Program-made: the position numbers and the translations under genes | Origin: Aphrocallistes beatrix | Lineage: Eukaryota; Porifera; Hexactinellida; Sceptrulophora; Aphrocallistidae | DNA: 64,000 bases | Assembly (NCBI GenBank): GCA_963281255.1 | Contig: OY725496.1 | Coordinates: 2,294,001-2,358,000 of the forward strand | Direction: 5' to 3' | The notes under the pieces: model-generated | What the model was told of the DNA's origin: nothing | Databases searched by the model: none | What the model saw: only the letters and a program-made list of their open reading frames with translations | Shown here: positions 8,719 to 54,700 of the stretch, piece by piece | How positions within the stretch are numbered: position 1 is the first letter of the stretch | Layout of the letters: the number at the start of each line of letters is the position of its first letter

Positions 8719-10032
8719 GGGCATTCAATTAATTCTTAACTCTGCAATTATCTTTATTATTAGGAAACCTAAACATCAAAAATTACATTAAATGTTCAAA
8801 GTAGTCTCCCTTCTGCTCAATTACTTGCTTTAAACGTTCAATCCACTTAAAAAAAGTCTTCTTATACTCCTCTTGGGGTATGTCTCCAAGATACAGACGA
8901 ATTGCCCTCTCAATTTGTACATCTTCCACAAAAACTGATCCAGCTAGATGTCTTTTGAGCCCATCGAAGAGCCAAAAGTCGCAGGGTGCTAGGTCAGGAC
9001 CATACGGTGGATGTTCTAATTCCTCAAGACCCATAGAAGCAATTGTTTCCTTCACCTCCTTAGATTTGTGTGGTCTGGCATTAGCGTGCAAAAGTTTGAT
9101 TCCTTTGAGTCTGGTGGCTGGTCGACGCTCAAAATAATGTTTTTGGCTCTCTGGAAGAACAATTGTTGCGTAGAAGTTGCCATTAATTGTTTGCCCCTTT
9201 GGGGCACAGATTTGGCACACTGGACTGTACCCATCAAAAAAAATCGTGTACATAACCTTGGGGCCAGCGATCGGGTCTTGGTAATCGTGGGGGAGCACTC
9301 CCTCTTACCACCCATACCTTATTCTGTTGCTTGCGTGGAGGTTCTGAAAAAGATTATCCAAGTTTCATCCCCGGTATATATTTCAGATAATCACCTCTCA
9401 TCGCAATGCTCATATTTTTCAAGTAAGTTTTTGGCAATTCTCAATCGGTTCTTCTTTTGAGCCTGTGTTGAGAAATGTGGGACCCAACGTGAACAAACCT
9501 TTGACATACCAAGGTGCTTTGTCAGAATAGTATGAACACTTCCCGTTGACAAGTCCAGGGTGCCAGCTAACTGTTCTACTGTAATATGCGGATCAGAATA
9601 ACACATTTCAGCTACAAGAGCAATATTGTTGGAGGTAGTAGCAGTAACGGGTTGTCCCATCCGAGGGTCATCTTCTATCGACTCCCTACCTCCACGAAAA
9701 CGAAGACTCCACTTCTTTACCGTCGATTCCGAACATGCCTCTTCTTCAAATCTTGGTGGATATTCCTTGGAGTATCGCTGAGTAATGAGCGAATTTTGAT
9801 GTAGGCTCTCTGCTCTAGTAAAATTTCGCTCGATTTAGAAGCTATAATTTCTTCTGTGGTTACTATAGCCAATATTTAGGAAAGCGTAACTTGGAAATTA
9901 ATCAATCAATTCTATCAAACTAAATTGTTCCTACTAGAAGAATATATAAGCTATATAATTGGAAGCAAATTGGGGTGAAATATGGTTAAACAATATAAGT
10001 AAAAGCAAGGGTAACGAACTAATTGAATGCCT
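8719..10032 (-). mobile_element. Mariner element 2
   Basis: Inverted terminal repeats are GGGCATTCAATTAATTC at the left and a match to AGGCATTCAATTAGTTC at the right, flanked by TA at 8717-8718 and 10033-10034. The exact first base is uncertain by a few positions because CTTA precedes both ends. The ends differ from mariner 1, so it is a distinct subfamily inserted in inverse orientation about 300 bp away. Confidence 0.8.
8783..9830 (-). pseudogene. Mariner transposase with one catalytic Asp replaced
   Basis: Two main segments. One at 9391-9660 carries the helix-turn-helix (TVEQLAGTLDLSTGSVHTIL, then SKVCSRWVPHF). The other at 8783-9298 carries the C-terminal half and ends QKGDYFEHLM. The first catalytic Asp lies between them in TGDETW, in another frame. 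The second catalytic position reads LLHANARPHK, with Ala where mariners have Asp. The third Asp is present in [11 protein letters not shown]. The substitution and the frameshifts both predict no activity. Confidence 0.85.
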
Positions 10033-13560: not shown

Positions 13561-13860
13561 TTACTTGCTCTGTTACGAGGGACAGGGTGTAATTCAGTTG
13601 TTACTTGCTCTGTTATGAGGGACAGGGTGTAATTCAGTTGTCACTTGCTCTGTTATAAGGGACAGGGTGTAATTCAGTTGTCACTTGCTCTGTTATAAGG
13701 GACAGGGTGTAATTCAGCTGTTACTTGCTCTGTTATAAGGGATAGGGTGTAATTCAGTTGTCACTTGCTCTGTTATAAGGGACAGGGTGTAATTCATTTG
13801 TCACTTGCTCTGTTATAAGGGACAGGGTGTAATTCAGTTGTCACTTGCTCTGTTATGAGA
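13561..13860 (+). repeat. 40-bp minisatellite inside the integrase element (7.5 copies)
   Basis: The unit is 40 bp, containing TTACTTGCTCTGTTATGAGG and GACAGGGTGTAATTCAGTTG. The array lies between the left terminal repeat and the integrase gene. The same unit is amplified to about 69 copies in the second element at 48996-51750. Confidence 0.95.
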
Positions 13861-14150
13861 GGATGAACTTGTTTTGAAAAAAACAGGTTTTAAGCAGCCA
13901 TTAACCCAGGAAGAAATGAAGAGAAAATAAGTTTGTTAGTTAATTCTTCTGAGGATTTTGGCAAAAGCATCCACCTTCGAGCAGCTGAGAAGTACAGCGT
14001 CTGTCGGTTTGAGATATTGTCGAGCTGCATACGAAGGGTGGAGAGTTTCGAGGAAAAGAGAAAGCCCGCGCATTAGTAGTTGCCAAGGAAGATGTTTACG
14101 AGACTCTCTGCAAAGCACACGACAATACCTGTCATGCAGGGAGGTTTAGA

Positions 14151-15898
14151 ATGTGGGCCTATTTGGAGAGACATAAACTGCACATTACTCGCTCGATCTT
14201 GGACATATTTTTACGACTCTGTCCTATATGCCAGGAGAAGAAGGGGAAGGTGACTACGAAAAGGATTGTCCACAAGCCAATCATTCCTCCAACTGTTGGC
14301 CAGCGTGCACAGTCTGACCTGATAGATCTACGAATGATGGAGGATAACGGGTACAATTACATCCTCAATTACCAGGACTGCTTTAGCAAGTTTATTGTGT
14401 TGAGAGCGCTTAAAACGAAGTCCTCTGAAGAGGTGTGTGAACACCTGATCTCTATATTCTGTGAACATGGAGCACCTCACATCTTCCATACAGATAACGG
14501 GCGTGAATTTAGTAATAACATGCTGAATACGGCACTGCTTACTCAGTGGAAGAGCACACGATTCGTATATGGAGGCCTCGGAAATCTACAGATCAAGGAT
14601 GCATTGAGCGAGCCAACCAGGATGTCGAGAAGCTGCTCTTTGCCCGCCTCAAATCATTGAAAAAGCCAATGGACCGTTGGGTGAGTGAGTTAAAATATGT
14701 TCAATATACTAAGAATACTGTTAAACATTCTGCTCTGGGCCGTAGTCCCTTTGAGGTACACTTTGGGAGGAGCCCCCTGATCTATCTGTAGATTTGATGC
14801 TACCCCAGGAGCTGGTAGACTCACTCCACACCGAGGACGATGTGGAGAAAGCTCTACAGATGGGTGGCGAGATCATCGAATTCTCTACTCAAACTACCGA
14901 GACTACAGCAGTTCCTGTCCCACGATCGAGCACTCCTATCTTACCCCCACTCTCTCGCATGACTCTATGTCAGCCAGATAGAGATGTGCCAATTCCTTCA
15001 GCCGATGTTTCTAACCAAGTGGATAGAGACCAACAGCCTCAGGCATGTTCTTCATATAGCCCAGAACCTGTCCACGAGTACACTGAAGTTGAAGTTCCCT
15101 CCTCGCCTCTCTCTTCTACTGACGAGCTGGATGAAGCAATTCTCTCAGAGCTGCATCCAGTACTAGTTCAGGATGAGGATTCTTACGACTTGGAGGTTAG
15201 ACCGCTTATTAGGACTGATGTTATACCATTTGTTAACCCAAATGATAGACTTCTTCCTCCCGATGTCGATCCTGAACTTCGATTTAACGAGAATGCTTGT
15301 GCTAATTGTGAACTGAGTGATGAGGCTATGCCATCCGTTAAATGTTCCTACTGTACAGATGACCTCAACTTCCACCCAGACTGTTTATTCAGTGTAGAGC
15401 CATATGGGGATAGGCACGTACAGTACTTTTGCTCAAGGGATGATTACTGTGCACATGAACTGCAAAGGCAATCGAATCGCAAGGTCGCATTCCATGGGCT
15501 GTGTAAACAGGGTGAAGACATGATAACGTCAAGCAATAAGCGATTGAAGGCTATCATGCTGGGGATAATGTAAGGATCTCCATTCCACTAGTAGACCCCT
15601 TGGCCCGACCAGTCTCATTGGGGTCGTAATGAAGGTGATCTCAGATGGGTCTGCATTTATGATTGACACCAAACATGGCATAATTTCTACTCCCTTGTCT
15701 TACTCAGATATTACACCAAGTAATACGACTCAACTATTACACCCTGAACAAGTACTAGACACACACCTGTCGGTCAGAACGGCAGCCCAACGTGATGTAG
15801 GAGGTCCTACTCCTAACTCCTGTAAGTGCAAGACAAGATGTAATACTAATCGTTGTATTTGCTTCAAACGTAAGGTTAAATGTTCTTCAAAATGTCAT
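14151..15898 (+). pseudogene. Integrase with PHD-like and Cys-rich C-terminal domains (KRBA2-like)
   Basis: A transposon integrase broken by frameshifts near 14575 and 14780 and a stop at 15573. The RNase-H-fold core has Asp in QSDLIDLR, Asp in HTDNGREFSN and Glu in [12 protein letters not shown], a D,D,E set. A zinc-binding CPIC lies near the start of the visible part. Downstream, an acidic linker leads to CANCELSD...CSYC...FHPDC...YFC (about 15295-15435), a PHD-finger-like Cys/His spacing. Last comes CKCKTRCNTNRCICFKRKVK followed by CSSKCH (15824-15898), the Cys-rich tail seen in KRBA2-like proteins. The N-terminal part before 14151 is only partly legible. The breaks indicate no full product. 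Confidence 0.75.
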
Positions 15899-20201: not shown

Positions 20202-23200
20202 TCAGTGATTCGTTGAGTTGTTGCTAACATCTGGTACCTTAAATGATTCGTATTCCGAATTCATTAGGCGAATAACTGGCTCGTAATGATTGTGATTAAT
20301 GTTGGATATGTAGATGGAGATAGCATTTGGATCTCTGGCATGATCAGAATACCGACGCCAGATTTTTCGCGTCCAGAGTTTGGTAGCATCATACAGTTCT
20401 GTAGATATAAATACGTCCGAGTCCAACATGCAAGAAATGGCCATCACCTCGACATCACTAGCCCATACATTATTTTCTGTCATAGCTGATGTTTTTAAGT
20501 ATGTCACAGGAGATCTATCCTTACTGAAAGTCTTAAGGTACCGGTTAACGATTGATTTCCCATCCGTTACCATGTATCTGCACAATTCTGCTCTGAGCTT
20601 GGCATGGTGGTTTTCGGTGCCAGATACCATCTTAGATATGCACCTAAAGAAACAATTCCCATCCATTCCATCTTTTCAGTCTGCCACGGAATGAACTGAG
20701 ACAGAAGAGAACCGGCTAGTGCTGGTTGTTGTTCGAGGCTCTCAACATAAGCAATCCCAAGTAGTTGACACTTCTCCTTTTGCCATTGCTCAGTAATAGG
20801 ATGATAGCACGGTCCTAATTTGGGCCAAGCTGGCAATCTGAATGGCATATTTTCTGTCGCGGAGGCAAATCTCTTGTTAATCAACTCCGATTCCAGGTGT
20901 TCACAAATCTGAAAGAATAAAAGACGAAAATATACTTAGAATTACATACCAGACTACGATCGTGATATAGTTAGTATGTTTACTCACAACTGGGAATAGA
21001 ACCTTGTGTGCGTACTCGATACAATGTCGGCTCTGCATGGTGGGGTTATAACATTTGTTAGCAAAAGCTTCTTCTGTCCACTGAAGAAGCATGTTCATAA
21101 CCTCTTCTCTCTAAAACACAATTGAACTGATTATATTTGATTCACAAAAACATTTTATACATTCTTAGATGATAGCAACAAACCATTTGGAATGGAGTAA
21201 CATTTTTGAGAACAGAGAATAGGACAGTAATCGTTGGACACATCTGTCTGTTCAGTGTGTTATGAAGTAATTCATGCAGTTGCGAAATAAACGCCTCGTT
21301 TATTAATTTCTTAATTACATCATCCTATAGTTAAAGAAAATAATTAGATCAAGTCCTGAGGTTCACTCACAAAATTATTATATAAGTTGTACACCTTAAA
21401 TTGACTTACTTTGAGCAGATTTAATTCTTCCACTATTGATTCTCGTGAAATACCGAATAAATACTGTTCGTCGTTCACATTCGTCACCTAACAAGATTGT
21501 TAGTTAAATCATACAAAGATCTAATTAATTGAATCGAATTTTGCATCAATCTATAGGACTATACCTTGGGTCTCTTGGAAGCAGAATTAGATGAAACGTG
21601 TGTATTTTTTCTCTTCAAAGGTTTTCCTCGAGATGGAAAAAGTGTATTTGTTGGTGCATCTACTATAGTAGACTGCTTATTGAGTGGCTACAAATATAAG
21701 TTAATATTATACTTTATAAGGGAAGGTATGCTTAATTGATCAAGTGTCATTCACCTGGAATTCGATTTCGCGCTGACGATACTTTTTAGACAAGTGAAGA
21801 GGATAGGTAACAATAAGTTGTGTTTCATCTTTGATGGCGACTACATGACCTTTTGTTACCTTTGTTGCCTCGAAAGGATCAGTATATTTAGGTTGTTTCG
21901 ATGTATTTGGAAGCTTTTTATCTTTCCTGATGTTTCGCACCAAAAACAGCTCCCCCTCTTGGATATTAGAACTAAAATTCCAAAATTGGTTTCATATTAT
22001 TAAATATCAACATTGCTAGTTATAAGGAGATTATATATAATTATCGTATATACCTATTCTTCTTCATCTTCTTGTCATAAATACGTTTTTGCGTAGATTG
22101 CTCGATTTTGATGTTTACGCGAGCTTCAGATTCATTTTGCTGTCGATTGAATTCCATTTCACTACCTAGATCATCATTTGCTTCCATTTCAATATCGAAT
22201 GGGTCAACTAGAGTCTCATTAATAATTGACTCATTTTCTGATGACTGTGGTTCTTCGCTAGGGTATGTAGACAACTTCCTGCTAAGAATAAGCAAAGGAA
22301 TAGCATCACATTTTCGGCCAAACATAAGTTCAAAAGATGTAAATTTCGTGGCGCGCTTGATCTTAGTGTTTGCAGCCATCACTGCAAACGGTAGCTTTGT
22401 TGGCCAAGATCCATCAGAAGTTAGCCGAAGTTTTTCAATTTTTCTGTAAATAAATATGCATCAAATCCGTACAATACAATACAATACAATTTATCACGTA
22501 ATATACTTTAATGACAAGTCTGCTGCTAGTAACTATTGAATACTTGACACAATAATTACATGCATATATACATATTTCAAAATAACTATTTAACATAGTA
22601 CCTCTTCAATATCTTGTTGTGGGCCTCCACAAGGCCATTACTTTGAGGGTAATAAGCACTTGAACGCCGGTTATCTACTCCAAGATCATGATGCATTGCA
22701 TTGAACTCCTTGAAGAGGTTGAACAATTATTTGATCATAAGGCGAAAGATAGTTGGGTAATGTTATTAAGAAATTTAAGAAAATTCATATTCTTTTTGTA
22801 AATATCTTAAAACTATGTGCAGGTACAGGCAATCGAATGAAATTTTAGACTATACCTGGGGGGAATTATTAATGATGTTTTGTGATAAATAAAATAAAAA
22901 TACGTATCATTGTTTTCACTGTTTTATGACAGTGTTATGAAATCATACTGTAGGAATCATGATCTGTACTTGTTACGTAAAAATCTGAGAAAGTAATCAT
23001 AACAGAATGCAAATGCTTTAAAACACAACGTAGTATAAGCAACAATTTACGGCTGTTTTGAAATATTTGGTTACAAATTATTCATGAGGCATACACAGCA
23101 CTTCGTTGCATGGTTTTTCACTTAGAAGTCAAATCAACATTATTGGAAACTTCATGGCAAGTTTGTATGATTTATTCCCACTTTGTCAATTCTCATTTAG

Positions 23201-29815: not shown

Positions 29816-30364
29816 ATATTTTAAAGTATGGTGGTTGTCATAAGTAGCTACACGTAATCCAAGTGCCCCATGTTAGCCTCATGGGAGATAATGATAAGAA
29901 AACTGAATAAATCTGTTTAAATTTAAGAGCATGAGTAATGATAGATGGGATTTTAACTGTAATGACAGTACAATAGACAGCTTAAAATTGAGTTTCATAT
30001 TTCTTGGTGCATATAATCCAAACGCATCAGAAAGCTATGCAGCGCCTCAAAACACGACATATGAAATCAGTAGCACATCCCTGGTCAACACTATACAGCA
30101 CCTCAAAATACAAAGAAACAGCTCTATTCTGCTTGGTTAATGATATTTGGTAGCTTATGTATTAGTTCAACCATTTCTACTGTGACATAGTCCAAAATAC
30201 ACGACTTGCTGTTTGACTTTATATGTATTAGAGCATGGTTGTTGATACGGGCCCGGCATAGCAAAATTTTATGGATAAATCGTACTTTCGCTTATATACT
30301 GTGAAGTACATTTCTATACGTTTTTTTCATTTTAATTTTCTTTAATATTTAGATATTTTTAAAA
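29816..30364. other. Upstream region of the TBK1-like gene
   Basis: About 550 bp before the start codon. At about 30115-30175, GCTTGGTTAATGATATTTGG and TATTAGTTCAACCAT resemble the right arm of the foldback family, so an old copy may sit here. TTTAG just before 30352 could be a splice acceptor for an upstream non-coding exon. No promoter motif is assigned. Confidence 0.3.
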
Positions 30365-30748
30365 ATGCATTTTTCATCTTCAGAAAATTTCCTATGGAGC
30401 AGTAACGATTCACTTGGGAAAGGGGCTACAGGGGGTGTATATAAAGGGAGACATTTGAAAACTGGACAATTGGTTGCAGTTAAAGTTTTTACAAATGAAA
30501 CTAGTTCATTTTGGCGTGAATTAGATATTTTGAAGAAGACACCTCCTCATGACAATATTGTCAGATTTCTTTCAATGGAATCAGAACATTCTACAAAGCG
30601 GCGGGTTATTTTGATGGAACTGTGCACTGGAGGGAGTCTTTATAATGTAATTGATCATCCAGAAAATGGTTTTGGTCTAGAAGAAAAAGAATTATTAATC
30701 GTTCTGAGGGATGTTGTTTCTGGCCTTAACCACCTTCATCAAAACAAG
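30365..30748 (+). CDS. TBK1: TBK1-like exon 1 (kinase N-lobe)
   Basis: 128 codons from [13 protein letters not shown] to LNHLHQNK. It carries the nucleotide-binding loop, the catalytic Lys and [13 protein letters not shown] of the hinge region. It ends AAG before donor GTTCCT, a weak donor, but the protein joins exactly to IIHRD of exon 2 in phase 0. Confidence 0.92.
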
Positions 30749-33700
30749 GTTCCTGTTTATATTATTTATCAAATGGACCCTTATTCTGTTATTCAGAATT
30801 ATTGATTACTTTTCCTTAAATATTCATACGTGACATTGTTTTTATTGCTTTCAAAATTCGATTTAAGTACAGTGGCCCCTTATAGGTCAAAGAATTAAAA
30901 CCTCTTAGGTGGTTTTAAACACTGCTTTTATAGTTTCAAGCGAGCTAGTAACTATAAAAGCAGTGTTTTGAAACCGCCTAAAAGAGGTTTTAAAGTATTC
31001 TAGATATCAATTATGCCCAAAAGGTAATTAATATCACTTGTGCCACCTTGACCCATTTGTTCCAAATAGATATAATTGTCATAACAAGTTGCGAGTGACA
31101 TACACAAGTACTAGTAATTACGCTTTGGAAATAATTAATCTGTGTAAGTGTATAATTCAAAATTACCTCTGGCCGTCACGGATATTCGAATTTTGGGGGA
31201 TAAAGTATAGACTTTCAGAAATTATGACACCAGAAAAAATCGGAATCGGTTCTAATGGGCTGCACTCCCTTGTATAATGACTAAACTCATAGCCTACTGT
31301 ATATAAGGCCTCAGAGTAACTTGACTAGGGATGCGGTAGAAGATGGTTGAACTAATACATGAGCTGCCTTAAATCATTAACAAAGCAAATAGAGCTTAGG
31401 AATGTATTACTAGCATATATAAATATGGTGTCAAAGTACCCATATCCGTTGTTAAAAATTTGACTAGTCACCATATGGTTGCACAATAGGGTGTATTTGT
31501 GAAAAATTTAGTGATTTTCAGAGGTCGTTTAAGGGCACTTCTAAGTGTTTTTATTATAAAACTTTTCGCATTGAACTGAGATGTGAATGGGTTAATACGA
31601 AAAATTTGGATTTTTTTCATGGAATGCTGCTACATTCCAGTGTTGCTATGGAAACGTGTTTTGGTCAGTTGGGGTCATATCTTACTTAGAATGGTTCAGG
31701 TCGTATTCCTATTTAGGAAAATTTTAGGGCTTATTCATATTTGTAATGGTTTTGGCCTCATCTTTTAATTTATGTCTTATTCTGATTTTAAATTGTTGAG
31801 ATAAATGCAAAAGAAACTTTAGTATAAGATGGAAATGGTGAAATTCTTTTTATTCTGAAAGTGAAATTCTTAAGAGATTTTTTAAGTTTTGAATTTTGGG
31901 CCTTACTTAATTTTGTTATAATTACTGAGTCTAATTCATATCATTTCGTCCATTTTTCAGTTCCATACAGCTTTAGAATACACCATGACATTTAGAGTGA
32001 TTTTTTAATATGTATTCGGTGTGCCCTGTAACTCTTCTTTTGACAAATTTTTTTTATTGACCTCTTTTTATTGGTAGCTTGGTTACTTACAATTTTCCTT
32101 TTTTTGGAATCTCCGAAATTTCTTTGGACTTTAATAATACCACTTTGGGGTTTCGATCAGCAAAATGGATAAATTGTTACTTGTTCTCCTTGAAACACTA
32201 AAATATACTTAAATATCGATACTTGCAATTTCTGAAATATTTCATTAATAATTCTACTATTTATTGTTTACATTCAATGGGCTATCGAAAATTTGCCTGT
32301 AGACTTAAAGAGCAATTATTTTACGAATTTCATATTTTTAATTTCGAGACTGCATTATCATTTGTTCTTTTAGATTATTCACCGTGATATAAAACCAGGG
32401 AACATAATGCGGTGTATCAATGAAGATGGATTTCATAGTTATAAGTTAGTCGACTTTGGTGCAGCCAGAGAGCTTGATCCTTCTGATACTTTTACTTCTC
32501 TATATGGTACTGAAGAATATCTCCATCCCGATATGTATGAACGAGCAGTATTAAGAAAAAATAAAGGGAAAACCTTCACAAGAAGCATTGATCTATGGAG
32601 TATTGGAGCTACCTTTTATCACGTCATAACAGGTTAATTAACATTTACAGTTTATTTTTTAGAAGTTCGGCCGACGATCATTTCATTTTCCGCATGAGAC
32701 ATCCTATTGACACATAATGTTGATCAAGTTCACTAAAATTGTTATAGTATACTATGTTAAAATCATGGTATATATTAAAATGCAAGAGGGTTTTTTTAAT
32801 TTTTGTGTTTGTCCAAATTGATTGAAGAATTGGCAAGTCCTAGAGATATGAAAATTAGCATGTACGTAGGTGTCAAATGATGTGACCACGATTCAGTTCT
32901 GAGATCTAAACAAAGTTTCACACCTCTACAAATAAATGGAGAACAATTTTTCACACCTTTTCTATTCAATATATATGACTTCACTCTCACAATAGAATTC
33001 ATTGTACGACACTGCGATTGACTGTCATTGTTATTAATACTTCAAAGCCACAACTTATGTTAGATATCTTAATTTTATTATAGTGTGTAGCAATAAAAAA
33101 GTTATGTGGATATTTTCACACCCTTATACGAGTATACATATTTTCACACCATTTGACGAATTTTAAAAAATAGGCTAGAGACTAGCTTCCAACGATTGAT
33201 ATGTGGTTTTAATAGGTGTGGAGTTCGAATATCATATTTTCGAATCTATATAATACATTATTTGTTTACTTTTGTTTACTATAGTTACATAAAGTAATCA
33301 AATCTCATAAATATGCTAGAAACTACTAGTTTTCAACGTTTGACATGGGTTTTTGAGTGTATAGATTTGGAATATCGTATTTTTAGATCTGTATGATAAA
33401 TTATTTGTTTAATTTTGTTTACAATAGGTACATAATGTAAACAAATCTCAAAAACAACGTTTGATTTCGGGTTTTCAGGGGTGTAGATTTTCGAAACCCC
33501 ACACTCCTCTTCTCCCTACTCCACCACAACCACCAACCATTACTCACTATAGGCATACAGCTCTGCTCCGCACCTGGGCCACTTTCTCCTTCCTATTCTG
33601 GTGAGTAATTGTGTTTTTCCTTCTCCACTTCCTCATCATTGTTATTCTCATCATTCTCCTTCCCTCTTGCCTAACACTGCATATTTCTTTGGTTCGAAAT

Positions 33701-36700
33701 CCGTCCAATCTTATTACTATCAAGCCTATTACATCTTCCTCCTGTGGTCATCCTCATCTTATATCCTTCCATCTTCTCAAAGCTCGGAATCTTATATCTT
33801 TCCATCTCCTCAAAGCTCGGAAAGGACTAAATCCCCTCGTTTTCTTAGCTATGTATCTGACCACCACCTGACGTTGTTGCCGTCACTGAGACCTGGTTCA
33901 CGTTAAGGGATGCGGCCGTGCCATGAGAGTTGAATGCACTCCACTCGGCTACCAACTCCTTGATCGTGCTAGGTCACCACATCGTCAGGGTGGAGGCACT
34001 GCACTTCTCTGTTGTGATTCCTTCACGCTGAAGTGCAATGCATCTGGTGAGGTATCATTTTTTGAGTACTCGGATTCGACTATCTCTTCTTCTGAAATCT
34101 TATTTCGTGTAATCCTAATATATCGGCCTCCCTACTCAAGGAATCTATTTCTTCCTTCCTTGAACAGTTCTTATCCCTCTTTGAACCCAGCAAGGATCCC
34201 CTGACTGGAGATTTCAATATCCATCTTTACATCCCATATGAGTATATACAGTTCTCCGAGCCCATGTGTTCTCTATCTTTAATCCAGCATGAGAATCAAC
34301 CAACTCATGAGAAGGGTCACATTCTCGATCTGATAATATCCCGTTCTGCTGACAACATCACCCTCTCTAATCCCGCTCCTGTCTATCTATTCTCCGACCA
34401 TTTCTCCTGCTCTTATAGTCTCTCGCTTTCCAAACCTTCTCCTTCCTCTCAGGAGGTTACCTATCGTTCCAAATCCATCAACCTCCCAATCTTTCTTGCT
34501 AATCTCGCTTCCTCTGATCTCTGTGCTAACCTACCTGATCATCTTGAGGAACTTATATCATCATATAGCTGTACTATATCTTCCATCTATGATCAACATG
34601 CTCCTCCGCGAACCAAAACCATCGTCACCCACCCTTGTGTCCCTTCGTTCACCTGCAGCATCAAGCAAGCCAAGCGAGCGAAAAGGAAGGCTGAACGGAA
34701 GTGGCACCATTCTAATGACCCTGACCATTTGGTTGAATTCAAGCATCAGAGGAATCTTGTGACTGACCTGATGAGCAGGGAACGTCGCAGTTTCTATTCT
34801 GATTGGATCAGTCAGTCCTGTCATGACCAGCGCTCACTTTTCCATAAAGCTAACTCATTGCTCGGTTTATGCCAGCAAAAGGTCCTAACACCTCATGCTG
34901 ATAAGGCTGCTCTTTCTCAGGAACTTGCCAACTTCTTTGTTTTTGAGGTACATAACATCCATTCCACCATCGATTCCAATGTATCGTCGTCTTCCGTTAT
35001 CCCCTCAGATAATTCAAACATTGAATCCCAACATACTTTCCACCAAGTCAAAGACTTATCTGAGGAAGAGATCGTTTCCCTTGTTTCCTCCGCTCCTAAT
35101 TCATCTTGTATCATCGATCCCATCCCAACATCCCTGGTCAAATAATCTCTGCCCATCCTAGCACCCATCCTGACGAAAATCGTGAATGAATCCCTCTCCA
35201 CTGGTCATTTTCCTTCACACTTGAAGCGCGACATCATCCTAACCATACTTAAAAGTCCAAATCCCGACCCCATTATATCTAACTATATTCCTCTTAGCAA
35301 TCTTTATTTCATCTCTAAGATAACTGAGAGGACCGCTTCCATCCAGGTCGTGGATCATCTTACATTACATCATCTCTTCCCCAGATGCAGCCTGCCTACC
35401 GTAACCCTCACTGTACGGAGACGGCGCTCCTGAAGGTCACAAACGACATCCTCCTCAGCCTGAATCGCCAACACGTATCCCTTCTGGTTCTTCTTGATCT
35501 TATTTCAGCCTTCGACACTGTCGACCAATCCATCTTACTCAATCTTCCCCAGTCTCATTTCGGAATTTGTGACTCTTCTCTGTCTTGGTTTGAATCTTAC
35601 CTCTCTGGTAGGACTCAATTCGTCTCGATAAAGGGTACTCATTCCACCAATGTTTCGATACAACACAGAGTTCCTCAAGCTTGGTCTGCTTCTCTTTATA
35701 TACAGTCGACTCCGCTTAATAAGGCCACATCGGTCAGAGGACATTTTGCCCCGATTAAGCGGAGAACCCTATTAACCGAAAATATTTTGTATTAACTTCT
35801 ATGTGTGAGAGCTATTCCGGTCCTGCCAAAAGTGGCCCGATTAAGCGGCTGAGCCGATTAAACAGTGGCCCTATTAAGCGGAGTCAACTGTATATACAAT
35901 CGCTAGCTTGCTTGTGCTGGCTGGCACTTTGTGTCCACCGGAGGCTCCCTTCTGACGCCTGGGGTAACATTGGTTAATTATAAGGGAGATAACATCTCTA
36001 AATATGTCCATCTTAGTGATATTAATATCGATATCACTCGATAAATCACCAAATTTGTTAATTTTAAAAATTTTGATGCTTAATGATGACGTCATAACAG
36101 AGTGATGTGTCATCATCTTTTGATGATAGTTAAACCACATTTGAATAATATTAATATACACATTCTATTAAAGTTTCAGCCTTCTATCCCCTAAAATGGC
36201 TGAGTTATGGTCGAAAAACTGAAATTTATAATTAGAAAAAGGTGACAATGACGTCATAATTTCATGATGAGTCGACATTTTGGTCTGAGCTCAGAATTAG
36301 TGGAGCCATAGCCAAAAGACTCCCACATGCCCAAAATCAGCTTTCTGTTCCTGGCAGTTTCTTCAATCAATTCGTTACATAAATATATATATATATATAC
36401 GTATATACGTATGTATATGTATATATAGTATATATACAGGGTGACAATTAAGTTCTGTTACAAGCTTCATTAGGTATAAAATTTATTATACTTAAACGAT
36501 CTTAGTTATTATGGTCCTTAGAGTTTATAATTCGAATATTTTAATGATTTTAAAAAGTTTTTGATTGAAGAAACTGCTAGACGCAGAAAGCTGATTTTTT
36601 GCTATGGCTCCACTAAGTTCTTATTTCAGACGAAAATGTCGACTCATCTTGGAATTATGACGTCATTGTCACCTTTTTTATAATTAGAAATTTCAGTTTT

Positions 36701-39700
36701 TCGTCTACAACAAGGCCGAGATCTTAATATAATGTTTATATTAATATACCTCACATATGATGCAACTATCATCAAAACTGTTATGACGTCATCATTACGC
36801 ATTAAAATTTTAAAAATTGATAAATTTGGTGATTTTTGTGCGATATCGCTTATAACAGTAGGACCGGCGTATTTAGAGATGTTATCTCCCTTATAATTAA
36901 TCAATGTGATCCCAGGCGCCTCTGGCGGACACAAGTGTCCGCCAGCTGCGCAGTGCAAGCATGCGAAGCGCGCTTGTATATATATATATTTACAAACATT
37001 AATCGAGTTTTAATAGTAAGGATGTATATATATATAGCGAGAGAGAGACGGGATCCTTGAGATCCTCACAAGTGGATCCCAGCTACGTACGTGGAATGTC
37101 GATTGCTTTCACTTCATATCCATGAACATTTTGACCTCAATGATCATATTATATTCCAGTGTAAGACTCCAGCAACATATTGTTACTAGTCATTCAGTTA
37201 GATATACTATACTGCAATATCGATTTTAGAACACCGATTTTACCAATTTTTCCAAGTATTGATCGACTTACGAATTTTCATCCCCAAATTCATTTTTATC
37301 AATAATGATAGTATTTGTATCTTCACTATTCGTAAAACACGAAACCGAGGACATTTCATGCCCCCAATTAGTGAGGTATTCCATCTATTAGAACAGCTAT
37401 TGATGAATCTTTTTTGAAATTTGTACCGTTGGAAAAAATTATTTGCCTTTGTTATGCCCTTTTTATCAATTATGGGACCATTTCAAAGAACGTCCGATTT
37501 TTTCGATTTTTACGATTACAACAGTTCTGTTTCAGAATTTGAAGCTGTTTTTTAATTGAAGTTATAGTCGATTGCATAAGTGATCACTTTGCAAAATATT
37601 ATGCTCATACTACGTACTTAGACTCAATGTAGCATGTGCGTTCAAAATCCGAAATATCTATTTTTAGACACACAATCTTCGTATCGAAACTATCAAAATG
37701 TAAAGCTTGCCCCTTCTAATATTATCTACCCAGTTTTTAGTAGACACTGTACGGAAGTTTTTAAGCGCAAATTAGAATGCATACATAAATACTTAATTAT
37801 TCAATCGCTCATTCAATGTGCAGTCTGGTAACTAAGCAACAATTGAAATATCACTTCATTAGGTATATGATTTATATTGACTAATATATTGATGCAGACA
37901 TAATATTGAACTGTAAGTTTATCAAGACAGCAGAGTTTAGACATATGTATCTTCAATATAGTTCAAATGAAGCAAATTGTAGTTCACAGTAGCTCGCAAC
38001 AATCTTCTCTCCCCGCTTATATAAAAGTTATTGAATTTCGCAAAATTCTGATGGCAGCTCTCTAATACTTGTTCCGAAAAGTAACCCAGCCCTAAAAGTT
38101 CTTCCTCTGGTGATCTATTCATATTGACAGTGATGAGATAGTTTCGGAGATGGTAAAGAAGAAAATGTATCTTGGGAGTTGGTCTGGTAAGCTCTCTAAC
38201 ACGTTTCCTTATTTTGTCAATGTCTTGAAATTGATCTAGCTCTTGTATAGCCATTTTTTCTACCTCTTCACGCATTTTGTTGAATTCTTTTTGGAAGATT
38301 TTGATTGAAGTTTCCCAGTTTGCTTTCAACTCTTTACCGCATACAGAATGTACCAGTTTGGCCGCTGCTTCCATAACTGGTACGAGGGGTTTCATGATCG
38401 GAAAGATATCTAAATTGATCTTCCCCGAATTTTCTAGGATGCGGATGCTAGCTCTCCCGGTGTAACTACCCTCGTGATACTGTTTCGCAGGACTAACAAG
38501 CGGTTCAATCCATTCTAATTCAAGTTTTCTGAAATTTTATTCCCCAAGCAGTTTTCGAGCTAGCCGATCGACAAACTTTTCACGGAGGCCAAGTTGAGTA
38601 TGGACAGCTGCTATCGGAAAGGCTAGCTTGGGATCTTCAAACTTTAGAAGCGGGAGGGTTGAAACTCCGAAGCATTCCTTGGCATGTTTTGAATCGGAGG
38701 AATAAACCTCCTCAATTTTGTTGGCCATACTCTCAAAATGTTCCCAATTTCTCATAAAGCCTTCCTCCTCAGATGTCCAGCAGTACGTGCAGTATGGGCA
38801 TGTATATTTTGCTGCACCTCCAAGTAAACCGCATTTCAAATTTATCACCTTGAGATCCGAGGTAAATATGTTCTCAGGCCTTGTCAAATCAATAGAGGGG
38901 AGTAGTTTTAGGATTTTACGTGAATAATCTCTTGTTTCGGGAGCCTTCGCTACAGCAACAAGCAGGCATCCTTTTACGCTGTCCTTGTACTGTAACCCAT
39001 GTGTGAGTTGCAAAACCACTTTGAGGTCTCATTTCCTATGATCCAATCCCCAACGATACAATTGCGACGGTTTCGAACGAGAATCTTCAGCAAAGTTTAT
39101 CAACGATTCGATATTATTATAATAAACGACCTCTGTTTCCTTTTCGATGTAACCACTGGATTCATCATCACTACTGGATACCCTGTGCTGTAATTTTATT
39201 TGTATCTCAGAAAATATCGGGGAAATGTGGTCAGCGTTGGTAAAATACTTCGGGGACCAGCTGTTTTTATCCCACAAGCTTTCATCCAATTACAGAGCTT
39301 TCGAAGGGATTCAGTTGACAAAGAAATTTATGTCTTCTTTGGTTATGGAAGGCGATTCAAATGGTTTCCCATAGCGCCCGTTAAGAAGACGTATCTTCAA
39401 AGTGTGCATTTCAAATTCTGGAAATTATCTTCAACTGCTCTTTTACGTAGTAAAGCCGCAACTACCTCTTCATCAATACCCTTTTTCTCCAGAAGCTCAA
39501 TTGTATTTTCAATTAAGTTGACACGACTGCAGACGTTACCAATCTTTTGGGGAGATAAACAATGTTTGCAAACTTCTTGTTCACCAGGAGTTGACCAGCA
39601 AACTCTTTTCATGGGTGGTGATAGGTTCGCACCTGCAATCTCACTAGGATGATCAGAAATTAGACCCTTGGATGAATTATGTTGAATTATTGGCCTACCT

Positions 39701-42700
39701 ATTTCACCAGTGTAGGTCTCGCAAATTGAGCAACCAATTCCTGAGTGTTTAGTCGTCACTTTGCGAGGAATTGAATGTGAACCCAATGATGCCAATTTGG
39801 GGACGCGACCTTTAAAAATTGAAGATGCACAGCCTTTACAAATATGCTGTGGATAAAAACATAGGTTAGACTCGTATTCATAATCGATTCCATAGGCATC
39901 TCTTACTGCTTCGATTAGCTTCTCACTAAAATTACGTAGATTGTCACGGGTCTTTCTCTGTAAACAGATTCTACATCGGTTTTCAATTGTTTGTACTTGT
40001 TTTTCGTAGTCATTCATTATTTAGAGATATTATAAATTCCTGAAATAATTTATTGTTTAATATTGTATTATTCTGGTACATATAATGATATTGTATACTA
40101 GATTAGAAACATAGAATACCATTGGAATGGGTGTATCAATGATAGCTGATACGTGTGACATTAACATTCCAATATCATTGGAATGTAGTTTGTGATAAGC
40201 AAAACAAGATTATTGAATCCTCGTTTTAAAATTAGATCGTATGCATCAAGCAAACCACAAAAAATTCGAAATTCAAATTTGAGGTTTTTCTTAGTTACCA
40301 GACTGCACATTGAATGAGCGATTAAATAATTAAGTATTTATGTATGCATTCTAATTTGCGCTTAAAAACTTTCATACAGTTTCTAATAAAAACTGGGTAG
40401 ATAATATTAGAAGGGGCAGGCTTTACATTTTGATAGTTTCGATACGAAGATTGTGTGTCTAAAAATAGATAGTTCTGATTTTGAACGCACATGCTACATT
40501 GAGTCTAAGTAGTATGAGCATAATATTTTGCAGAGTGATTACTTATGCAATAGACTATAACTTCAATAAAAAAACAGCTTCAAATTCTGAAACAGAACTG
40601 TTGTAATCGTAAAAATCAAGAAAAATCGGACGTTTTTTGAAATGGTCCGATAATTGATAAAAAGGGCATAACAAAGGCAAATAATTTTTTCCAACGGTAG
40701 AAATTTCAAAAAAGATGCATCAATAGCTGTTCTAATAGATGGAATACCTCACTAATTTGGGGCATGAAATGGCCCCGGTTTCGTGTTTTACGAATAGTGA
40801 TCTTGTAAAACAATTTTGGTTGTCTTTTATATCAATAATGCACACGTAGTATTTTACCTCTCAATGGCAAACGGTTTACGAACTTCTACGATAGATTTTT
40901 TAAAAAAATACTAAGAACTGAACATCTACAATTGTTATATGATCAATTTTTCTATTATGCTAAAATACTATGGATGGGCTAATGTTTTTTTCTTGTCATA
41001 ATGATGCTGCTTCATTTCCATAATACGTACAAGGATTCTGTTTACCAATTCATAGTACTACCAATTTTACAAATTCATAGTTCTGATTTTAGGATTTTTA
41101 AATTTGTATGCACATAAGAAACATAACATAGGCGTTAGAATCTCTCAAAGAGTGGAGGTTCTTTCCATTTTATCCTGATGATTGGAAATGCTTGTTTTAG
41201 CTTACATTTTATGAATTAATAATAATTATTGCTTGATCCCAAACATTGGGTATAATTGGTGTTGACAAGATTCAAAATGTATATTTAGATTTCTTCCTAC
41301 TACATACTCCTGTATTTATGGCTCCTCAGATGGTGAAAACCACAAGGAAGAGGCTTCTTATTGCTTAAAAATGAAGTTTGATGTCTATAAAAGATAAAGG
41401 ATGAAAAAGCACCCTCTATTGTTGCAACTGAGTTTGGGATCCCAAGATCTTCAGTAGGTGTAATTAAGTGCTCTGGGCCAAAAATGGAAGCATTTCTCTT
41501 GGCTGATACTCGACTTGATTTTCGGGGAACAATGATAAGTACTTCTTTCCCAGAGCTTGGTAAAGCTCTGAAAGTGTTTTTCGATGGACAACGAGCTTTG
41601 GGGTAACGGATATCAGGTGCACTTCTACAGGAGAAGGCAATAATATTTTTTGAGAAGTTATCTGCACCGATTCAAGTGAAGACATCCAATAATTTGCTCT
41701 CATTAGAGGATGTACAAAATAATTCAACGTTAGGCGGAGTTTTATCCACAAATTCAAACAGCGTCATGGAATATTAGCTGCGTAGGGGAGAAGAAAAGCG
41801 CTAATAAGGATTCAGTCAACCCTTTTCTACAGTCCTTTAATTATTTAACAAAGGATTTGACACGCAATCAAATTTATAACTTAGACGAGACCGGTCTATG
41901 TTGGAGGGCAATGCCAACTAAGACACTAGCAGGTCCAATTTAATTAAAGACCTATGGAAGTAAGATTGACAAAGAGAGGGTAACGCTGATGGCGTGCGCC
42001 AATGCATCAGGTAATCACAAACTAGAGTTAGTTTTTATTTACAAGTGCCAAACCCCAGGGCTTTGCAACAGATTAATGAAAACAAACTCCCAGTCGTATA
42101 TTAGAGTCAGCCCAAAGCATGGATGACTACGGAATTATTTGACAATTGGTTCCACAATTATTTATTCCCGCTGTCAGTAATTATCTCAAAGCGCTAGGCC
42201 TATAAGAAGCTGTACATATAATGGATAATGCTCCAAGCCATACAAATTTTCAAATCTAATGAGTTCTGCTGATACTAAAATTAATTGTCTCTTTTTCCAC
42301 CTAATACTACATCAATTTTACAGTCCATGGATCAAGGCGTGTTAGATACCTTAAAACGGCACTATAGAAAGAAAATAATGAGGAATGCCCTTTTAATGAA
42401 GAAAATGAATTGAAAAATATGTCTGCTGTGAAAAATTCTGCATGTAGAGAGGGGAAAGTTTACCACTTTATACATAATTTACATTAATATAGTTAGAAAC
42501 TTGAGTATCTTGTGAGATTCATTAAATCCATTCTAAAATGAAATGAACATAATTAACGATGATGATTGTAAAATAGGATATCAAGTCTCAAGTTTATATT
42601 CAAAGATAAAATTATGATTACTAATGATATTTATTGCATGCTATCTACTATAGTTCTTGTAAACATGATAGTACGCTGTCCCCATTAAGTATCCTGTCCC

Positions 42701-48700: not shown

Positions 48701-51700
48701 GAATCTTGGCTAAATCTTGGCTAAAAGCAACTTTGGCTGAGCCAAATATTTGGCTCAACCAAAGTGTTCAGTCAACCTAAATTTGATGGGAGCATAATAC
48801 ATCATGGGTTGACAAGAAATTGTAGAGATTTATTTAATCTTATTGCGTTATGCGTTATGCGTGAGAGTAGTATAGAATATGATTACCAGTTGAGAAAATC
48901 CAATATAAAACTCATTCATGTTAACAGTAATTAGCAATGCACAATAATTAATTAAAAATATTAACAATTCAACAAATATGAGTCATTCGTACTAGTTACT
49001 TGCTCTGTTATGAAGGACAGGGTGTAATTCAGTTGTTACTTGCTCTGTTATGAGGGACGGGGTGTAATTCAGTTGTTACTTGCTCTGTTATGAAGGACAG
49101 GGTGTAATTCAGTTGTTACTTGCTCTGTTATGAGGGACAGGGTGTAATTCAGTTGTTAATTGGTCTGTTATGAGGGACAGGGTGTAGTTCAGTTGTCACT
49201 TGCTCTGTTATGAGGGACAGGGTGTAATTCAGTTGTTACTTGCTCTGTTATGAGGGACAGGGTGTAGTTCAGTTGTTACTTGCTCTGTTATGAGGGACAG
49301 GGTGTAATTCAGTTGTCACTTGCTCTGTTATGAGGGACAGGGTGTAGTTCAGTTGTTACTTGCTCTGTTATGAGGGACAGGGTGTAATTCAGTTGTCACT
49401 TGCTCTGTTATGAAGGACAGGGTGTAGTTCAGTTGTTACTTGCTCTGTTATGAAGGACAGGGTGTAATTCAGTTGTCACTTGCTCTGTTATGAGGGACAG
49501 GGTGTAGTTCAGTTGTTACTTGCTCTGTTATGAGGGACAGGGTGTAATTCAGTTGTCACTTGCTCTGTTATGAAGGACAGGGTGTAGTTCAGTTGTTACT
49601 TGCTCTGTTATGAGGGACAGGGTGTAGTTCAGTTGTCACTTGCTCTGTTATGAAGGACAGGGTGTAATTCAGTTGTCACTTGCTCTGTTATGAGGGACAG
49701 GGTGTAATTCAGTTGTTACTTGCTCTGTTATGAGGGACAGGGTGTAGTTCAGTTGTCACTTGCTCTGTTATGAGGGACAGGGTGTAATTCAGTTGTTACT
49801 TGCTCTGTTATGAAGGACAGGGTGTAGTTCAGTTGTTACTTGCTCTGTTATGAAGGACAGGGTGTAATTCAGTTGTCACTTGCTCTGTTATGAGGGACAG
49901 GGTGTAGTTCAGTTGTTACTTGCTCTGTTATGAGGGACAGGGTGTAATTCAGTTGTCACTTGCTCTGTTATGAAGGACAGGGTGTAGTTCAGTTGTTACT
50001 TGCTCTGTTATGAGGGACAGGGTGTAGTTCAGTTGTCACTTGCTCTGTTATGAGGGACAGGGTGTAGTTCAGTTGTCACTTGCTCTGTTATGAAGGACAG
50101 GGTGTAATTCAGTTGTCACTTGCTCTGTTATGAGGGACAGGGTGTAATTCAGTTGTTACTTGCTCTGTTATGAGGGACAGGGTGTAGTTCAGTTGTTACT
50201 TGCTCTGTTATGAGGGACAGGGTGTAGTTCAGTTGTCACTTGCTCTGTTATGAGGGACAGGGTGTAATTCAGTTGTTACTTGCTCTGTTATGAGGGACAG
50301 GGTGTAGTTCAGTTGTTACTTGCTCTGTTATGAGGGACAGGGTGTAATTCAGTTGTCACTTGCTCTGTTATGAGGGACAGGGTGTAGTTCAGTTGTTACT
50401 TGCTCTGTTATGAGGGACAGGGTGTAATTCAGTTGTCACTTGCTCTGTTATGAAGGACAGGGTGTAGTTCAGTTGTTACTTGCTCTGTTATGAAGGACAG
50501 GGTGTAATTCAGTTGTCACTTGCTCTGTTATGAGGGACAGGGTGTAGTTCAGTTGTTACTTGCTCTGTTATGAGGGACAGGGTGTAATTCAGTTGTCACT
50601 TGCTCTGTTATGAAGGACAGGGTGTAGTTCAGTTGTTACTTGCTCTGTTATGAGGGACAGGGTGTAGTTCAGTTGTCACTTGCTCTGTTATGAAGGACAG
50701 GGTGTAATTCAGTTGTCACTTGCTCTGTTATGAGGGACAGGGTGTAATTCAGTTGTTACTTGCTCTGTTATGAGGGACAGGGTGTAGTTCAGTTGTCACT
50801 TGCTCTGTTATGAGGGACAGGGTGTAATTCAGTTGTTACTTGCTCTGTTATGAAGGACAGGGTGTAGTTCAGTTGTTACTTGCTCTGTTATGAAGGACAG
50901 GGTGTAATTCAGTTGTCACTTGCTCTGTTATGAGGGACAGGGTGTAGTTCAGTTGTTACTTGCTCTGTTATGAGGGACAGGGTGTAATTCAGTTGTCACT
51001 TGCTCTGTTATGAAGGACAGGGTGTAGTTCAGTTGTTACTTGCTCTGTTATGAGGGACAGGGTGTAGTTCAGTTGTCACTTGCTCTGTTATGAGGGACAG
51101 GGTGTAGTTCAGTTGTCACTTGCTCTGTTATGAAGGACAGGGTGTAATTCAGTTGTCACTTGCTCTGTTATGAGGGACAGGGTGTAATTCAGTTGTTACT
51201 TGCTCTGTTATGAGGGACAGGGTGTAGTTCAGTTGTCACTTGCTCTGTTATGAGGGACAGGGTGTAATTCAGTTGTTACTTGCTCTGTTATGAAGGACAG
51301 GGTGTAATTCAGTTGTCACTTGCTCTGTTATGAAGGACAGGGTGTAGTTCAGTTGTTACTTGCTCTGTTATGAGGGACAGGGTGTAATTCAGTTGTCACT
51401 TGCTCTGTTATGAGGGACAGGGTGTAGTTCAGTTGTTACTTGCTCTGTTATGAGGGACAGGGTGTAATTCAGTTGTCACTTGCTCTGTTATGAAGGACAG
51501 GGTGTAGTTCAGTTGTTACTTGCTCTGTTATGAAGGACAGGGTGTAATTCAGTTGTCACTTGCTCTGTTATGAGGGACAGGGTGTAATTCAGTTGTTACT
51601 TGCTCTGTTATGAAGGACAGGGTGTAATTCAGTTGTCACTTGCTCTGTTATGAGGGACAGGGTGTAATTCAGTTGTCACTTGCTCTGTTACGAGGGACAG

Positions 51701-54700
51701 GGTGTAGTTTAGTTGTCACTTGATCTGTTATAAGGGACAGAGTGTAGTTCAAATATGTTCAATATACTAAGAATACTGTCAAACAGTCTACATTTGGACG
51801 TACTCCCTTTGAGGTGCACTTTAGGAGGACCCCCTGATCTATTTGTAGATTTGATGCTAGATGACGCCCTACAGATGGGTGGCGAGATCATCGAATTCTC
51901 TACTCAAACTACCGAGGCTACAACAGTTCCTGTCCCACGATCGAGCACGCCTACTCTCCTCCTCCTCCCACTCTCTCGCATGACTCTATGTCAGCCGGAT
52001 GTGACGATTCCTTCAGCCGATGTTGCTAACCAAGTGGATAGAGACCAACAGCCTCAGCCATGTTCTTCATATAGCCCAGAACCTGTCCACGAGTACACCA
52101 AAGTTGAAGTTCCCTCCTCGTCTCTCTCTTCTACTGACGAGCTGGATGAAGCAATCTTACACGACTTGGAGGTTAGACCGCTTATTAGGACTGATATTAC
52201 ATCATCTGTTAACCTAGACAATATACTCTGGTGCTCTAATCACTGTTTGTAAGGTTAAATGTTCTTCATTTCCCTTCCCAACACTTCCCTCACTCACTCC
52301 TTCCTTCCTCGAGTCAAGCCTGTCGTTCCTGATTACAAAACTAAACGACTTCCTATTGATTACTCCTGTAAGAGATCTACGAACAAGAAAGCTCCAGGAT
52401 ATTTTAACAGTCCCAGAATTCTAGCTATTCGCTATCAAACTGGAAACATTTACATAGCAGACATTAAATGAAGAGCATTTAACCTTACAATACAGCGATT
52501 AGTACTAGAGTATATCGTCTAGGTTAACAGATGATGTAAATCAGTCCTAATAAGCGGTCTAACCTCCAAGTCGTGTAAGATTGCTTCATCCAGCTCGTCA
52601 GTAGAAGAGAGAGACGAGGAGGGAACTTCAACTTTGGTGTACTCGTGGACAGGTTCTGGGCTATATGAAGAACATGGCTGAGGCTGTTGGTCTCTATCCA
52701 CTTGGTTAGCAACATCGGCTGAAGGAATCGTCACATCCGGCTGACATAGAGTCATGCGAGAGAGTGGGAGGAGGAGGAGAGTAGGCGTGCTCGATCGTGG
52801 GACAGGAACTGTTGTAGCCTCGGTAGTTTGAGTAGAGAATTCGATGATCTCGCCACCCATCTGTAGGGCGTCATCTAGCATCAAATCTACAGATAGATCA
52901 GGGGGGTCCTCCTAAAGTGCACCTCAAAGGGAGTACGTCCAAATGTAGACTGTTTGACAGTATTCTTAGTACTACGGAAGTTCAATAAGTTCTGATCATT
53001 ATTAGATAACATTACTAGATTTTACTAGTACCTTAATTCGCTCATAGAATATGTTTATTTTATCAATTACCTAAAAGCCAGTTTTTACTTGGTTCAAGTC
53101 TATGTTATGAAATGTGCTCTATCTTATCCTGGAGTCAGACGATGGGCCCAGCGCTTTAGGGTAGGTAGAGAGTCTGTGGAAGATGACCCTCGGGCTGGAG
53201 CACCTGTTACTGCGGTTGTCCCCAAATATTCCAGTGCTATTAAGGAACTCGTTGATTCAGATCCTCATATCACTGTTAAAGAGTTAGTTCATATTATTGG
53301 GATCTCAACGGGAAGTGTTGGCCACATTCTAAAGTCAAAACTAAATCTATCAAAGGTTTGTGCTCGATGGGTCCTTCATTGCTTAACAAAGGCCTGTCAG
53401 GCCAAAATTGGTCTGAGGGATCAGTTTTGGCTGCCAAATCTAGTCTGGAGGACCATTTTTAGTGCAGTTTCTGCAGAGAGATGCCCCTATGGCAATGACG
53501 GTGTACCACATCCGTCCATATGTATGTATGTATCTCCGTACGCTGCGAAATTTGAGTTTTCAAAAATTTAGTAGCCCGATGTATAACAATATTCATATCT
53601 CGCGTGCCAAGTCAGCTGCACTATCGGTCTACCGACATACATTTTTCTTAACTTGAATAATGCCAACTTGAGTCATGATCAAAGCGGGCGCAGCGTTGAA
53701 GGGAAATGGCGGGAAGCAATAGTAAAACTTCTACATACTTGTAGAATCAAAAAAAGTGGACAAAATAAAACTTAATATAAAAGCGGGACATTCAATGCAA
53801 AAAACGTGCAGTTGGCATATATTGAATAGACTCCCTATTAATAGAGACCTCCTAGAGTGATTGTAATGTCATCACATCCTATGAGGAGAGGACTACTTTA
53901 GTGTACGTAATTAAATGGCACAAAATTTAACCCGGACCAATTTTGGCATGGGGGGAAGCAGGTCAAAGCCAAAATTGCAAGCATGGGGATGGTTGAGCTT
54001 GAGCATCCACCCTACAGTCCAGACCTAGCTCCTTGTGACTTTTATTTATTCCCGAAGCTAAAAGAGTACCTTTCTGGTCGTCATTTCGACACAAATGCAG
54101 GACTGGGTTCGGCGATTTTCCAGTATCTAAACCTTATACCTCCTGAAGACTATGAAAAAGTATTTATACAATGATTAGAACGTTTACAACGCTGTATCGA
54201 TAATCGTGGGAGTATTTTGAAAAAATAGAACATTAATTACTTGTTTATCGTGTATTTTAAATGTTTACAGTGTATTGATCAGAACTTATTGAACACCCGT
54301 AGTATATTGAACATATTTTAATTCACTCACCCATTGGTCCAGTGGCTTTTTCAATGATCTGAGGCGGGCAAAGAGCAGCTCGACATCCTGGTTGGCTCGC
54401 TCAATGCTTCCTTGATCTGTGGATTTCCTAGGCCTTCCATGTACGAACCGTGTGCTCTTCCACTCATTGCGAGAGTATTTGTACCTGTTATCCTCTTGCA
54501 TTCGTAAATCAATCAGGTCAGACTGTGCACACTGGCCAACAGTTGGAGGAATTATTGGCTTGTGGACAATCCTTTTCGTAGTCACCTTCCCCTTCTTCTC
54601 CTGGCATATAGGGCAGAGTCGTCAAAATAATTCCAAGCGAGCGAGTAATGTGCAGTTTATTCTTCTCCAAATAGCCCCACATTCTAAACCTCCCTGCATG

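Follow-up and report, generated by a model that had tools for sequence, protein, structure and literature searches.

What kind of transposon lies at 37324-40799 of the 64,000-nucleotide stretch analysed here (the window) from contig OY725496.1 of the sponge Aphrocallistes beatrix, and what does it say about the assembly of RAG1? The earlier note on this DNA had described a RAG1-like transposon with 5-bp target-site duplications, in which a RAG1-type N-terminal zinc region and a RAG1/Transib core occur together. We found that this complete copy is very probably a decayed member of the Chapaev-type DNA transposons in the CACTA/Mirage/Chapaev (CMC) group, an assignment made by described hallmarks and not by alignment to a named Chapaev. 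The CAC-ended transposon, its N-terminal zinc region and a RAG1-type fold, seen in the model of a relative, were retained from the earlier description, and Transib/RAG1 membership, the 5-bp rule and the weight placed on the joined halves were given up. The Chapaev superfamily reportedly goes back to Kapitonov and Jurka in 2007, and the CMC group is said to come from Yuan and Wessler in 2011.

The sequence CACTATTCGTAAAACACGAAACC forms the terminus at both 37324 and 40799, and these were its only two matches in the window at up to three mismatches, with zero matches in 100 shuffles. The left and right inverted repeats are identical in 489 of 514 aligned columns, with substitutions at about 4%. 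The end search and the arm alignment bore out the CACTATT ends and the inverted repeats of about 510 bp proposed earlier, and the flanks carried the exact ATCTT on each side as described. The start with CAC and end with GTG, a hallmark of Chapaev, are present in the element and in the ends of its relatives. The only long gene runs on the minus strand from an ATG at 40017 to a final stop at 37937-37939. A single minus-strand gene was correctly recognised, albeit one whose frame is disrupted by a single shift near 39.4 kb and by four in-frame stop codons (39311-39313, 39290-39292, 39029-39031 and 38537-38539), so that no full transposase can come from the window copy. Outside the gene and the repeats, about 370 bp of the element remain; the reported absence of a visible RAG2-like partner agrees with this anatomy, which has no room for such a gene. 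Besides the transposase pieces, one further frame of at least 100 amino acids lies inside the element, antisense, at 39194-39652. The reported absence of RING agrees with the translation, in which no such pattern was seen by eye. The features of the element are as follows; the motif positions given in the earlier note (C15/C18, C60/C63, H91, C96/C99, SDLK, CPYC, AAVHTQ and GYFSEQ) were all reproduced, and families a, b and c are described below.

37319-37323, no strand: left target-site duplication ATCTT, from the flank read in the duplication survey
37324-37836, plus strand: left terminal inverted repeat of 513 bp, starting CACTATTCGTAAAACACGAAACC, aligned to the right arm
40290-40799, minus strand: right terminal inverted repeat of 510 bp, terminating ...GGTTTCGTGTTTTACGAATAGTG, aligned to the left arm
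40800-40804, no strand: right target-site duplication ATCTT, from the flank read in the duplication survey
37937-40017, minus strand: decayed transposase gene with a conceptual read-through of 691 residues, 41% identical over 94% of its length to the open-framed P0001
39721-39975, minus strand: putatively Chapa-like N-terminal zinc region (C15/C18, C60/C63, H91, C96/C99), of which families b (L038) and c (L042) have the three Cys pairs but not H91
39559-39570, minus strand: additional cysteine pair CKHC (C150/C153), from the read-through, with no RING pattern seen by eye
39041-39043, minus strand: first catalytic Asp candidate, LDHRK (YRWGCDHGQGYLK in P0001), from the alignment of homologues
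38855-38857, minus strand: candidate for the second catalytic Asp, SDLK, which the best local profile alignment sets in register with mouse RAG1 GYDEKLV
38789-38800, minus strand: C(2)C motif CPYC, from the six-row alignment
38600-38602, minus strand: LH-motif histidine, reading VH here (AAVHTQLG), from the six-row alignment
38150-38167, minus strand: H(4)H motif HFLLYH, from the six-row alignment
38072-38074, minus strand: catalytic Glu candidate, GYFSEQ, from the six-row alignment

All six aligned rows keep the two Asp residues, the Cys pair of C(2)C and the His pair of H(4)H without change, and the catalytic Glu is present in all five rows reaching it, as SEQ or, in L031, as AES. The LH-motif His is invariant as well, preceded by Val in the three family-a rows and by Leu in the rows of families b and c. 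The earlier note had named such motifs RAG1/Transib landmarks; the catalytic and zinc motifs are described as common to the whole CACTA/Mirage/Chapaev/Transib assemblage (PMC12730594).

The host genome (100.5 Mb in 28 contigs) was searched for relatives. P0001 was the only homologue of the read-through at E≤1 among 7,996 scored candidates, and the genome holds at least 66 matches to P0001 and at least 40 to the left repeat. Family a comprises the family of the window element and a sub-family with the ends CACTACCTG. Family b is more numerous and has the ends CACRGGTGTAA, found 68 times at up to two mismatches with none in the control, and family c is a third group seen in L042 and L043. Profile searches added six proteins for family a and 56 for families b and c, including one labelled as Oopsacas minuta, a glass sponge, and another as Perkinsus marinus. 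Profile comparison links family a to b at 99.5-99.7% and to c at 99.0%. Pfam scans, run on the transposase pieces, P0001 and the six-row alignment, were uninformative. When viral and genome contig collections were scanned with the relatives' alignment, none of the 13 and 30 pattern matches, respectively, was a relative, and an exact scan of the viral contigs for 19 bases of the element end found none.

Target-site duplications were surveyed in 29 copies with both ends readable (four carrying the same ends as the window copy, two from the sub-family and 23 from family b). A length of 4 bp fits 22 of these, 19 by no other length and three within simple repeats, while six lacked an exact duplication and the window copy alone shows 5 bp. 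With mispaired flanks as control, 4-bp agreement averaged 1.07 and reached at most 6 over 2,000 shuffles. Within the window's end family, copy C11 has ACAT, C1 has AACA, C9 lies in a TA run that allows even lengths only, and the window copy has ATCTT. The rule is therefore 4 bp, and the 5-bp duplication described earlier is confined to the window copy. Further CACTATT-ended copies, for which the earlier note had suggested a search, were found with duplications that fit 4 bp where readable, a length that the note itself had set against its own reading. Thirteen CACTATT-type copies were listed, nine of them one-ended and yielding no duplication; the ends at C19 and C7 seemed degraded, and those at C12 lacked the terminal match. 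Eight further CACTATTNGTAAAA sites lay outside the left-repeat matches, of which seven were unused and one (C17) was left out; similarly, 24 end pairs were identified in family b and 23 used, the C17 pair being left out. Placement of the ends in the C1 copy (L049/L050) and in L038 tolerated mismatches at the final bases, and family c gave no usable duplication. The anatomy of these copies establishes mobility with a 4-bp stagger.

The 5 bp of the window copy raises a side issue that does not compete with the classification of the element, namely whether a normally 4-bp enzyme made a true 5-bp staggered insertion or a base was added to 4 bp; we consider the chances of a true 5-bp stagger to be even. 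Other RAG-type transposases vary in stagger, and this variation, together with the exact ATCTT on both sides, speaks for it. On the other side, ATCT with an extra T at the left junction yields an identical sequence and empty site, and the two readings are therefore indistinguishable from the window copy. In addition, L085/L086 (G000 C4) and L039 (G000 C14) of family b share the flanks TGGTA (5 bp) and GGAT (4 bp), with one or two additional bases lying between flank and left end; junctions are therefore not always clean, which counts against the true 5-bp stagger.

Chapaev transposons are described as having 3- to 4-bp duplications, CAC/GTG termini and the C(2)C, LH and H(4)H motifs (PMC4079192). 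The element resembles them in its CAC...GTG termini, the 4-bp duplications of its family, the D-D-E residues together with the C(2)C and H(4)H motifs, and possibly its N-terminal zinc region, a candidate counterpart of the Chapa domain. It differs in the VH for LH of family a, the 5 bp of the window copy, inverted repeats of about 510 bp and a RING not seen. A position in the CMC group outside Chapaev proper (CACTA/EnSpm, Mirage or an unnamed sister sharing the motifs) appears improbable, although several points favour it against the Chapaev assignment. The C(2)C and H(3-4)H motifs occur across the assemblage, where duplications range from 2 to 5 bp (PMC12730594), and the Chapaev assignment made here goes by described hallmarks. 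Because VH replaces LH, we gave this alternative more weight and the Chapaev reading less. However, the EnSpm families described in PMC12730594 make 3-bp and not 4-bp duplications, and the Chapa domain is described as confined, among known transposable elements, to the Transib superfamily in the sense of PMC4411706, which unites Transib, TransibSU, Chapaev and Chapaev3.

The protein core was compared with those of RAG1, RAG1L and Transib. PDB sequence searches with the read-through, P0001 and the six-row profile gave no match to RAG1, RAG1L or HzTransib, and the best result was a single core piece reaching RAG1L at E=0.16. As a control, a mouse RAG1 core piece matched RAG1L at 1.1e-55 and HzTransib at 0.0099. 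Searching the same genome with RAG1 yielded ten short matches, with E from 0.004 to 0.18; four of these loci, L107-L110 (G000 C2, C3, C14), contain Transib-type frames resembling one another, and L109, the one tested, matched HzTransib at 2.7e-13 and RAG1L at 6.7e-4. CAC-ended repeats sought in L107-L110 were found as one pair in L107, without a duplication, and as none in the other three, so that there is no Transib duplication control. Profile comparison linked RAG1 with the genome's own Transib at 77-80% over 55 columns, family a with RAG1 or Transib at 0.3%, and family c with RAG1 at 3.1% (E=0.015). The short alignments were in register at the second Asp and C(2)C for a and RAG1, at the H(4)H/Glu region for a and Transib, and at the Glu for c and RAG1, whereas those of family b were out of register; the in-register alignments are as would be expected for very distant relatives. 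In an 11-row tree RAG1 and Transib were split from families a, b and c with support of 98/98, with a program warning of long branches. The structure model of a relative has the overall RAG1 core architecture from about RAG1 residue 460 on and is unreliable over the part corresponding to RAG1 before about 460; a first model, from a nine-row alignment with a mean predicted local distance difference test score (pLDDT) of 44, was unused. The RAG1/Transib core claimed earlier thus stands as a RAG1-type fold in the relative's model, while by sequence the core groups with its sister families and not with RAG1/Transib.

A RAG1-like Transib, or a RAG1L/TransibSU element lacking RAG2L, that carries the RAG1 N-terminal region and makes 5-bp duplications as a rule is very improbable. 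It would account for the ATCTT on both sides of the window copy, the heptamer-like CAC ends, the RAG1-type predicted fold, the RAG1-like spacing of the N-terminal Cys residues and the weak RAG1L match of one core piece. Against it, the same-ended sister copies C11 and C1 have 4 bp and 19 of the 25 other pairs fit 4 bp; PDB matches are absent for protein and profile, though the Transib of the same genome does match; and the 0.3% profile probability and the tree split point the same way. Unlike canonical Transib, which has no identifiable domain beyond the core (PMC4411706), the element has a zinc region, and unlike HzTransib (PDB 6pqn/6pqx) its family follows a 4-bp and not a 5-bp rule. It also differs from RAG1 and RAG1L (mouse RAG1; BbRAGL, PDB 6b40; TransibSU) in having no significant sequence match to its protein, no RAG2L gene inside and no RING seen. 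A RAG1-like Transib was rejected on duplication length, sequence and tree, RAG1L without RAG2 on sequence, and N-RAG-TP alone on the presence of a full core. Pfam RAG2 and RAG1_imp_bd profile searches of the genome gave no matches, but their positive controls were equally silent.

The N-terminal zinc region supported the earlier parallel with RAG1 in its three Cys pairs, which recur in families a, b and c, and not in its other residues, as H91 is kept in family a and not in b or c, and PRKVT is not conserved, being missing from P0001, P0002 and L031. In hhalign comparisons the N-terminal regions of a and b matched at 94.7%, of b and c at 84.5% and of a and c at 13%. Each family was compared with the mouse RAG1 N-terminus against 20 plain shuffles and 20 shuffles with C and H fixed. 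The score was 21.6 for family a (plain ≤18.1, C/H-fixed ≤21.1), 20.0 for family b (≤14.0, ≤19.8) and 22.5 for the pooled families (≤14.5, ≤19.8), and 11.3 for family c, under its own shuffles. The hhalign probabilities were 3-9% (a, b and pooled), and 7-9% at best. No significant RAG1 N-terminal match was obtained at the usual thresholds, and a Pfam scan of the transposase pieces gave no RAG1 family at E≤1; this is the first of the two outcomes that the earlier note had named as refuting its reading. The resemblance is suggestive, short of significance. The zinc region also matched Pfam zf-AD (insect ZAD) at E=0.047, under the cut-off, and this match was not adopted; the predicted structure of the N-terminal part (pLDDT <50) was unusable.

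In working copies of this Chapaev-type transposon, the transposase would bind CACTATT at the outer ends of the long inverted repeats, and the element would be cut out and reinserted elsewhere with a 4-bp stagger. By analogy with RAG1/Transib we infer the cleavage chemistry, cut-and-paste transposition and hairpins, and the zinc region presumably has a role. Any movement of the window copy today would depend on transposase supplied by its other copies.

Several other observations were made. A transposase frame of family b, 1,116 codons long, lies at L037:2740-6090 (G000 C20) within inverted repeats containing an 819-bp stretch of 100% complementarity, and its N-terminal part is expanded by a 24-bp minisatellite repeated in frame about 50 times; its sister copy L038 has the unit once and retains the first zinc pair. 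L060, L061 and L062 (G000 C2, C4, C12), sites of a relaxed end pattern, share the longer sequence CACTATTTGTAAAATAGGTCAA..., unlike the window repeat, and are a different repeat family with similar ends. Elsewhere in the window, a 40-bp satellite at 48995-51751 (about 69 copies) and 13563-13856 (about 7 copies) adjoins in each case a copy of one element: the frames 51734-52252 and 14755-15573 have protein sequence in common, the second lying after an integrase (rve) frame at 14013-14660. The frames 35328-35795, 8783-9304 and 53029-53571 have weak Pfam matches to RVT_1, DDE_3 and HTH_32, all under the curated cut-off, and are probably remains of long interspersed nuclear element (LINE) and mariner-like transposons. 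In addition, there are frames for electron-transfer flavoprotein alpha (4240-5253, no visible intron), an OTU protease (20202-20675) and a protein kinase (30353-30805).

A zinc region and core in one element, regarded earlier as informative about RAG1 assembly, are already published for Chapaev, Chapaev3 and a truncated TransibSU (PMC4411706) and for RAG1L (PMC7204232). The Chapa domain, equated with part of the RAG1 N-terminus, occurs in these Chapaev, Chapaev3 and TransibSU proteins and is followed by RING in two Chapaev subgroups, and the fusion of Chapa and core is placed already in the common ancestor (PMC4411706). RAG1L proteins have N-terminal zinc motifs, some without RING, and Transib has no N-terminal part (PMC7204232). 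N-RAG-TP of Aplysia likewise has a RAG1-like N-terminal zinc region within a transposon (PMC8355894, PMC2996935), and a fusion of N-RAG-TP with Transib has been argued for (PMC8355894). A description of the element's family was not found in the titles and abstract starts of the papers listed by searches on Chapaev or transposons in sponges, which is no proof that none has been published.

Because the joined architecture of Chapaev is already published (PMC4411706), the element alone leaves the account of RAG1 assembly unchanged, and its informativeness in this respect was overstated. It is possible, though doubtful, that the Chapaev-type transposase joins a RAG1-like N-terminal zinc region to a RAG1-fold core (from about RAG1 residue 460) in one protein. 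If so, the joined protein would favour the inheritance of both RAG1 halves together from one ancient Chapaev/Transib-like transposase and would speak against the halves having been joined later, by fusion of a Transib and an N-RAG-TP element. Apart from its decay the element is an ordinary Chapaev-type transposon; with its many sister copies, it shows clearly the anatomy of a lineage that is cousin to the RAG1 ancestor. The agreement in predicted fold over most of the RAG1 core lends useful, testable support to common descent of Chapaev, Transib and RAG1, and the Chapaev-type family and Transib-type genes in one genome allow their comparison without host differences.

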